A stretch of 46,482 nt of DNA from Lachnospiraceae bacterium (GTDB lineage: Bacteria; Bacillota; Clostridia; Lachnospirales; Lachnospiraceae). The first letter of the stretch is position 1; each line of letters starts with the position of its first letter. A program made the translations under genes and the position numbers. The stretch spans positions 1 through 46,482 of the forward strand of contig JAGAFR010000029.1 of the NCBI GenBank assembly GCA_017612555.1, given 5' to 3'. Below, in pieces: positions 1 to 1,619 of this stretch. Under the pieces are notes generated by a model. That model did no database searches, was not told the origin of the DNA, and was given only the letters and a program-made list of their open reading frames with translations.

Positions 1-152
1 ACGGTGCAATCGCATCACTTTCATCAGTATCAAAGCTTCCGTTCAACGATGCACAGGATGGTATCTCAAATACATTCACGATCATCCCGGGAGCACTCGG
101 TAAGGAAGATCAGGTATTCGCAGGAGATATCGAATTAGATTTAAATAAATAA
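1..152 (+). CDS. pflB: Pyruvate formate-lyase body, 3' end only (lacks glycyl-radical domain)
   Basis: The reading frame is open from the window edge and ends at TAA 150-152. The translation contains [17 protein letters not shown] and [13 protein letters not shown], which match my memory of the PflB region just before the C-terminal glycyl-radical domain (E. coli has ASLTSVAKLPF and NALGKDDEV). In E. coli PflB the chain continues for roughly 75 residues with the radical glycine; here it stops within about 10 residues of that junction. The enzyme converts pyruvate and CoA to acetyl-CoA and formate. The missing radical domain is supplied by the separate gene at 384-626, so this is a split enzyme rather than a frameshift: stop, SD and new start codons lie between the parts. 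The N-terminal part is outside the window. Confidence 0.9.
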
Positions 153-172
153 TGTAGACAGGAGGTGGTGTT

Positions 173-367
173 ATGGACCAGATTGATGATCTTGTAGCTT
201 TTCTTGACGGTTCGGTTGAGTCCGGAGTCGGACATCTGAACGTAGATGTTGATGAAGCGCAGCAGGAGATGAGAAGTACTGAGACAATGGGCTGTACGGA
301 TTGCTCCAGAACACCTCTCGCATGCAGTGTCCCCACGCTTCATCAGGGATTAGATGATTATAGTTGA
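173..367 (+). CDS. Small protein resembling the front half of a glycyl-radical domain, with Cys-rich tail
   Basis: A 64-residue ORF with GGAGGTGG at 161-168 placed correctly before ATG 173, lying between the PFL body and the free glycyl-radical domain. Its first half ([19 protein letters not shown]) parallels the next gene ([19 protein letters not shown]). Its second half diverges completely: no RVSGY radical loop, but a segment with three cysteines, [17 protein letters not shown]. It therefore cannot carry the radical itself. It could be a degenerate duplicate or a functional small partner that binds the PFL body or its activase, for example as a modulator. The good SD and open frame argue for translation. 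I do not recognise a named family, and the function is unknown. Confidence 0.6.
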
Positions 368-383
368 AAAGGAGGAAAACATC

Positions 384-626
384 ATGGCAGCAAATCAGGC
401 ACAGGTTGATAACCTGGTAAATCTTTTAGACGGATATGCAACAAAGGGTGGACATCACCTTAACGTTAATGTTCTTAACAGAGAAACTCTTCTTGATGCT
501 CAGGCTCATCCGGAGAACTATCCTCAGCTTACGATCAGAGTAAGCGGATATGCCGTAAACTTCATCAAGCTTACACCGGAGCAGCAGGCAGACGTAATCT
601 CAAGAACATTCCACGAAGCAATTTAA
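384..626 (+). CDS. grcA: Free-standing glycyl-radical domain (GrcA-like) completing split PFL
   Basis: An 80-residue protein that equals the C-terminal domain of pyruvate formate-lyase. It has [10 protein letters not shown] (25-34), YPQLT and the radical loop RVSGYAV with Gly55, then the family ending with DVISRTF. GrcA/YfiD proteins in enterobacteria and phage T4 repair oxygen-cleaved PFL by replacing this domain; here the upstream PFL has none, so this protein is probably an obligatory subunit. ATG 384 was chosen over an in-frame ATG at 354 because GGAGG lies at 371-375, eight bases upstream. The PFL activase follows downstream, consistent with installation of a radical on Gly55. Confidence 0.9.
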
Positions 627-788
627 GTGAGATAAGCAGGCAAGGGACTGCACCCTGATGCTCGCATCAATGGGTGCAGGGCTTTGACTGCAAGACAGAT
701 ATGAGGAAGTAGCAAGTCGAAGACGAAGCGGATTCCGAATGTCTGTAGGATTGCGAAAGTGCGAAGCACGTAGCAATCCGTATCTCAC
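627..788 (+). ncRNA. Candidate structured RNA / 3' UTR element after the split pfl genes
   Basis: This noncoding stretch begins directly after the stop codon of the glycyl-radical gene. GTGAGATA (627-634) is perfectly complementary to TATCTCAC (781-788) and could close the whole segment. Inside are three further helices: CTGCACCC/GGGTGCAG with an inner TGATG/CATCA (648-679); CAGATAT/ATGTCTG with an inner GTC-GAA-GAC hairpin (about 694-746); and GGATTGC/GCAATCC with an inner GTGC-GAA-GCAC (748-779). That gives a multibranched fold of about 162 nt. I match it to no RNA family I know. Pairing was done by eye, without an energy calculation or covariation. Confidence 0.45.
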
Positions 789-807
789 GATTAATCTGTA
801 ACCACAC

Positions 808-851: not shown

Positions 852-1619
852 ATGACACAAGGTCGTATTCATTCACTCGAGAGTTTCGGAACTGTAGACG
901 GCCCCGGGACCAGATACGTGGTATTCGTCCAGGGCTGTCCCATGAGATGCCTGTATTGTCATAACCCGGATACATGGGCGATGACAGGCGGAGAGCTTAT
1001 GGATCCCGAGTATATATTTGAACAGTATCTCCATAATGAGGCCTTTTACAAAAACGGCGGAGGTCTGACGGTTACGGGCGGAGAGCCCCTGATGCAGGTT
1101 GATTTTCTGATCGATCTGTTCACGCTGTGCAAGGATCACGGTGTTCATACATGCATCGATTCGTCCGGTATTGCGTATCGTCCGGATAATACCGAATTCA
1201 TAAAAAAACTGGACCGGCTCATGGAACTTACGGATCTGGTGATGCTTGATATCAAACATATAGATCCCGAAATGCACAAGAAGATAACGGGTCAGCCCAA
1301 TGACGGGATACTTGCGTTTGCGCGGTATCTGTCAGATAAGGGTGTTGATATATGGATAAGGCATGTCATCGTACCGGGACTTACCGATGATGATAAGTAT
1401 CTGTATGACCTTGGTTATTTCATAGGAGGACTTAAGACGCTAAAGGCGCTCGATGCGCTTCCTTATCATACAATGGGAAAGCCCAAGTATGAAAAGCTCG
1501 GGATCGAGTATCCCCTCGGTGACACACCGCCCATGGACAAGAAGGATCTGGTAGCCAAGAAGCAGGTTATCCTTGATGGTATCAAGGCAAGAAGAAAAGA
1601 TGACGAAGAAGGCAGATAA
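852..1619 (+). CDS. pflA: Pyruvate formate-lyase activating enzyme (radical SAM)
   Basis: A 255-residue radical SAM enzyme that abstracts hydrogen from the glycyl-radical domain to switch PFL on. The 4Fe-4S cluster motif CX3CX2C is seen in GCPMRCLYCHNPDTW near residue 30, followed by the SAM-binding TVTGGEPL. The start ATG 852 has GGAGG at 842-846. Its length is typical for PflA. It lies downstream of the split PFL genes, behind a structured segment and a terminator-like hairpin, so its level could be set separately from its substrate. It probably must recognise the small free radical domain rather than a full-length PFL, which is an inference from the neighbouring genes. Confidence 0.95.
   Translation: MTQGRIHSLESFGTVDGPGTRYVVFVQGCPMRCLYCHNPDTWAMTGGELMDPEYIFEQYLHNEAFYKNGGGLTVTGGEPLMQVDFLIDLFTLCKDHGVHTCIDSSGIAYRPDNTEFIKKLDRLMELTDLVMLDIKHIDPEMHKKITGQPNDGILAFARYLSDKGVDIWIRHVIVPGLTDDDKYLYDLGYFIGGLKTLKALDALPYHTMGKPKYEKLGIEYPLGDTPPMDKKDLVAKKQVILDGIKARRKDDEEGR

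Follow-up and report, generated by a model that had tools for sequence, protein, structure and literature searches.

Our main finding is that a radical-less protein of 64 residues is encoded between the two parts of a split pyruvate formate-lyase (PFL), as it is in many gut bacteria with a two-piece PFL. Purifying selection acts on its gene, most strongly on the tail, and profile alignment shows its N-terminal half to be related by descent to that of GrcA3, the free-standing glycyl-radical protein. PFL is central to the fermentation of sugars by anaerobes, and oxygen destroys it at its radical glycine. As its putative docking half is kept, the radical is lost and two Cys are invariant, this protein, hereafter the companion, is best read as a dummy that would occupy the PFL pocket, a tentative reading that is weighed below against several others.

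The companion gene and its locus

The window - that is, the whole stretch of DNA analyzed, 46,482 nucleotides of contig JAGAFR010000029.1 from a Lachnospiraceae bacterium (GenBank assembly GCA_017612555.1) - begins with the following features:

3..152, + strand: 3' end of the PFL body gene, last 49 codons (...GDIELDLNK, stop), NCBIfam TIGR01255 positions 628-665 of 744
160..168, + strand: ribosome-binding site AGGAGGTGG, from the sequence
173..367, + strand: 64-aa radical-less companion protein (ATG to TGA open reading frame, homologues, dN/dS)
173..250, + strand: companion N half, residues 1-26, helix and GHLNVDV strand, related by descent to the start of GrcA3
251..283, + strand: companion variable linker, residues 27-37 (dN/dS 0.43; indels)
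284..364, + strand: companion conserved Cys tail, residues 38-64 (dN/dS 0.028; C44, C51, P54 and T55 conserved)
384..626, + strand: free-standing glycyl-radical protein GrcA3, 80 aa, radical loop RVSGY (NF038360)
852..1619, + strand: PFL-activating enzyme PflA (TIGR02493, E 2.2e-86, above cut-off)

The PFL gene is already under way where the window starts, so that those 49 codons alone are visible here; homologous PFL bodies in other loci likewise stop ahead of the glycyl domain. The product of 384-626 matches NCBIfam NF038360 over its full length (E 3e-48, above cut-off). An initial annotation of this DNA had described a frame lying between two PFL parts and preceded by a strong SD; indeed, the companion gene sits between the end of the body at 152 and the start of GrcA3 at 384, and AGGAGG at 160-165 stands ahead of its ATG at 173. 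In the companion family, with start codons chosen by rule, GGAGG precedes 59 of 136 starts, AGGAG 16 more and a weaker word 34, while 27 have none; in the window as a background, GGAGG is found at a comparable distance for 27 of 1176 ATGs.

The locus has a second copy in the same assembly, at G000:C85 (95.8% identity over window 1-626, 83% over 852-2224), probably from another strain or species within the bin. Separately, the spacer that follows GrcA3 (window 691-791) has an 80% identical copy of a part of it at G000:C55:44796-44902.

The initial annotation had also seen in the frame a copy of the HLNVDV strand and of the helix before it, with the radical loop replaced. Both observations are borne out: companion residues 2-27 align to positions 4-29 of NF038360 with an E of 1.2e-4 (22.1 bits, below the curated cut-off of 158), and SGY, the core of RVSGY, occurs in 0 of 140 family members, the window's own included. 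A single profile-profile comparison of the family with GrcA3 gave a probability of 85% (E 7.5e-7); its alignment spans 69 columns, and the likeness is confined to the N half. Pfam, including Gly_radical PF01228, gave no match to the companion at E up to 1, nor did Pfam or NCBIfam beyond residue 27 at the same threshold, nor PDB sequences at E up to 10. Pfam and NCBIfam have no family for the companion, relatives included. Titles and abstract openings in the literature yielded no paper on split PFL or on the companion protein, and the main text of a paper on small gut proteins (PMC13376575) has none of the words 'formate', 'glycyl', 'radical' or 'GrcA'.

Spread, selection and invariant residues

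When the window's own genome and relatives, 61 genomes in all, were searched, the companion turned up in 25 at E below 1e-5: in 23 of 37 same-genus genomes at 75-100% identity, the other 14 of 37 giving no match, and in two of 24 other genomes, at 47% and 41% identity. Of 392 order-level genomes, 98 match the companion profile at E 1e-3, and 60 of these, in 24 genera, hold a member above 40 bits (the stop-interrupted G350 among them); the weaker matches resemble the starting portions of PFL or GrcA3. Scanning named genomes for the tail or helix peptide confirmed at least 119 relatives, at least 80 of which were kept; Kineothrix alysoides and Acetatifactor muris are among the relatives carrying the companion. 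At the class level, 391 genomes gave 10 matches at E 1e-8, three of them beyond the order. Altogether 182 loci, many overlapping, reduced to 168 frames and then to 140 distinct sequences, one of which is the window's own.

The initial annotation had named Ka/Ks and position in relatives as checks, and lack of conservation or a decaying substitution pattern as refuting outcomes; neither of these outcomes was found. The first check indicates purifying selection: companion dN/dS is 0.094 among 23 same-genus sequences (summed NG86 dN over summed dS, 139 pairs, with 114 saturated pairs excluded); GrcA3 from the same loci gives 0.061 (241 pairs, 12 excluded). By part, dN/dS is 0.127 in the N half (142 pairs), 0.43 in the linker (99 pairs) and 0.028 in the tail (127 pairs), so that the part without likeness to GrcA3 is the most constrained. 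As to position, 134 of 140 members have a PFL body no more than 400 bases upstream and GrcA3 no more than 600 bases downstream. Among the remaining six, one shows the order PFL, GrcA3, frame; two lie at a contig edge with GrcA3 downstream; and three, all of one genus, have the companion beside a YitT-family gene (identified by Pfam for L150, by eye in the other two genomes), with PFL, PflA and GrcA3 together elsewhere. Seven companion-operon genomes (L206-L209, L211-L213) possess an additional gene for free-standing GrcA3, in a 4-6.5 kb stretch that contains neither PFL nor companion; these second genes are possibly true spare parts.

Two cysteines dominate the conservation of the tail. C44 is kept in 140 of 140 members and C51 in 139 of 139, the truncated L172 ending ahead of it; P54 and T55 are present in all members except L172, and G20, H21 and N23 in 139 of 140 each. 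The three Cys noted by the initial annotation are all present in the window's companion (41, 44 and 51), but C41 is missing in 27 of 140 members, leaving two that are invariant. Since 60 of the 140 members were first found by a scan demanding the tail or helix peptide, the collection favours conserved tails; the 80 members first found without that pattern show the same conservation, C44 and C51 included. In the three members from beyond the order, two Cys are retained as C-x(n)-A-C-x-[VI]-P, and one of these members has Asn for T55. In L172 (genome G350), a stop interrupts the companion between the two conserved tail Cys, which is probably a loss in progress.

A metal site of four ligands, C41, C44, C51 and H57, was considered and is weakened by the presence of C41 in 113 of 140 members and of H57 in 84 of 140. 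Fe-S accessory subunits of glycyl radical enzymes require four conserved cluster ligands; in the companion family, C44 and C51 are the only invariant ligands of that kind among 140 members. By such membership tests, the companion belongs neither with GrcA3 nor with the Fe-S accessory subunits. Nor do we claim that the tail imitates the cysteine finger of PFL (ACCVSSM..G). A profile comparison of tail and PFL came out empty; at the finger itself, 61 of 5000 shuffles reached the observed score, and over the full length of PFL the tail matches best at another site, with an unremarkable score that 29 of 200 shuffles also reached. Sought as a domain in other proteins of 41 genomes, the tail gave, apart from the companion frame itself, nothing better than a match of 18.5 bits, which covers 12 positions and contains a stop.

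The distance from the strand His to C51 is 29-31 residues in 119 of 139 members, and that from the strand His to the radical Gly of GrcA3 is 30 in 140 of 140. For C51 the distance varies: by-eye counts give 27-28 for the three genomes from beyond the order, and values reach up to 38. The match between C51 and the radical Gly is suggestive only; as the spacing varies, the correspondence may be a coincidence.

Association with the split PFL

In the order-level sample (n = 392), 80 genomes have a free-standing GrcA3 among the matches listed, defined as an open frame under 150 aa with a match above about 132 bits, so that weaker ones would be missed. All 60 companion-bearing genomes are among those 80, the companion being found in 0 of 312 genomes without a listed free-standing GrcA3. 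The Fisher value of this association is 9e-54, which overstates independence because the sampled genomes are related. A second, overlapping sample of 120 family genomes gave 30 companion matches at E 1e-8, counting the stop-interrupted G350 as well as G818, whose match is limited to positions 1-49; a free-standing GrcA3 is present in 29 of the 30, and the genome that lacks one is 67% complete. This co-occurrence supports the view that the companion belongs to the split PFL. It is not obligatory in the other direction: among the matches listed, 20 of the 80 order-level genomes with free-standing GrcA3 have no companion, as do 16 of 45 in the 120-genome sample.

A tree of 60 PFL bodies (31 with companion, 15 split without, 14 fused) placed all split PFLs within one group, with companions on both deep and shallow branches and with several companion-less split lineages, a presence pattern that requires several changes. 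Both groups submitted to AU tests were defined after inspection of the tree; a single clade of companion bearers was rejected (p 0.00015), and a single clade of split PFLs was not (p 0.12). The companion is therefore dispensable, given the 20 of 80 genomes that lack it, the several changes on the tree and the rejection of a single clade of bearers. Five fused PFLs (L183-L187) are nested among split ones, in genomes all without companion; re-fusion of PFL in this lineage is suggested only, because the alternative survives the AU test.

Possible roles of the companion

Our leading, though tentative, candidate is that the companion is a radical-less dummy glycyl domain, which would fill the empty PFL pocket and compete with GrcA3. 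Its helix and GHxNV strand would bind the body at the GrcA3 site and hold the pocket when usable GrcA3 is absent, either destroyed by oxygen or because PFL is to be off. The two-Cys tail would reach toward the active-site Cys-Cys pair and shield it, or hold it by thiol chemistry, and GrcA3 would later replace the companion in the pocket. Having no radical glycine, the companion would not be activatable. The initial annotation had proposed docking in the PFL cavity, by a competitor, a placeholder or a redox switch, and from the resemblance in sequence this is plausible; we likewise infer docking, competition, tail position and a role of oxygen from sequence features.

The dummy reading draws support from the G-H-x-N-V strand being kept while the radical loop is gone, and also from purifying selection, operon position, co-occurrence with GrcA3, the C51 spacing, the E. 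coli work described below and the nested fused PFLs of L183-L187 without companion. It is weakened by the 20 of 80 losses, the one genus in which the gene lies away from PFL, the variable C51 spacing, a tail without profile similarity to PFL and the bias of the scan toward conserved tails. The losses point to a conditional role, such as oxygen survival or shut-down, rather than to an essential catalytic part.

Studies of E. coli bear on this reading and on its main rival. According to the available text of PMC8683613, proteases very readily attack PFL once it is cut at the radical loop, including between residues 690 and 695, and YfiD is proposed to put its strand copy in place of PFL strand beta10. 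Stretch 696-733 is needed for good binding of YfiD to cut PFL and for activation; in PFL truncated at 695, YfiD binding is undetectable by calorimetry and activation is 32-fold less (PMC8683613, same portion). The split body aligns to E. coli PFL as far as residue 681 and GrcA3 to residues 680-758, so the split falls near the E. coli proteolysis and truncation site. The closest PDB sequences to the split body, 38la_A and 38lb_A, are formate acetyltransferases, and 38la_A (687 aa) stops just ahead of the glycyl domain, near the ends of split bodies.

The rival in question, which we consider unlikely, is that of a loading or activation adaptor: the companion would stand in for the stretch before the radical glycine (E. 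coli 696-733) and help GrcA3 to bind the body or to reach PflA. The truncation at 695 argues for such a part, as does a split body that ends at 681 beside a companion copying some of the missing stretch. However, GrcA3 itself covers 680-758, so that little is missing, the 20 companion-less genomes manage with free-standing GrcA3, and the tail is left unexplained.

That few residues are as invariant as C44 and C51, in a tail with so low a dN/dS, would also suit a thiol switch or radical quencher, in which docking only brings in two Cys; these would quench thiyl or glycyl radicals by reduction or, when oxidized, pair as a disulfide, turning PFL off safely. We judge this distinctly unlikely: two conserved Cys could equally bind a metal or a partner, and the radical is already gone if the companion replaces GrcA3. 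Improbable, in our view, is a permanent structural subunit, with each PFL dimer holding one GrcA3 and one companion, or with metal bridging the assembly, so that half-of-sites reactivity would result. The nearly constant operon position between both PFL parts is consistent with it, and another glycyl radical enzyme does have accessory subunits (PMC12590467, in the portion available); its absence from a quarter of free-standing-GrcA3 genomes (20 of 80) and the E. coli evidence in the accessible part of PMC12338860 count against it. A pseudo-substrate of PflA, whose tail, with a Cys near the radical-Gly position, would bind and block the activase, is very improbable, for although the H-to-C51 spacing resembles the H-to-Gly spacing of GrcA3, it is not strict, and the tail is unlike the RVSGY loop in the profile alignment. 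Finally, a decaying or chance duplicate of the GrcA3 start, which the short length of the companion and the stop in L172 might suggest, is scarcely credible and is ruled out by a dN/dS of 0.09 and by family conservation, with 140 distinct sequences and a conserved tail that is not derived from GrcA3.

Should the companion indeed be a dummy glycyl domain, a further step, possible but doubtful, would be a new control of a glycyl radical enzyme, in which GrcA3 serves as an exchangeable cartridge and a radical-free decoy, made of the docking half of GrcA3 and a two-Cys plug, alternates with it in the pocket. A widespread form of PFL would then have its oxygen-sensitive piece as a protein of its own and a radical-free partner dedicated to the enzyme, which would reveal how PFL is protected or switched in these bacteria. 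Body, GrcA3, PflA and companion together make a compact system for asking how a spare part finds PFL and enters it.

A second small family, with a GrcA3-like front half and another conserved tail (HHGRCDVGSPWAKG), is found at G000:C69:3843-4031 (L232:3843-4031), with further loci at L210, L233-L245 and L249-L277. Against the GrcA3 profile, L241 gave an E of 4.7e-5, the others matching barely or not at all. It is present in 28 of 37 genomes of the genus. In the sample of 120 family genomes, 15 contain it at more than 36 bits, and the PFL-linked companion occurs in 14 of these 15. Within the genus, 13 of 30 loci have it next to an activase gene of the nrdG2 type, that of anaerobic ribonucleotide reductase, against 0 of 14 loci of other genera. 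The second family would, if the decoy principle is true, widen it.

Among known systems, the closest is GrcA3 itself (NF038360): the companion shares with it an N-terminal helix and HxNV strand, a start codon at about the same point and an operon, but it lacks the radical loop and carries a different, two-Cys tail. E. coli YfiD/GrcA is likewise small and has a duplicate of PFL strand beta10 (PMC8683613, available text); unlike the companion, it carries the radical glycine and restores PFL activity. The beta and gamma subunits of benzylsuccinate synthase are Fe-S accessory subunits with [4Fe-4S] clusters and a HiPIP-like fold. Like them (PMC12590467, available part), the companion would be a small partner tuning a glycyl radical enzyme; unlike them, it has only two conserved Cys and a docking part that resembles the glycyl domain.
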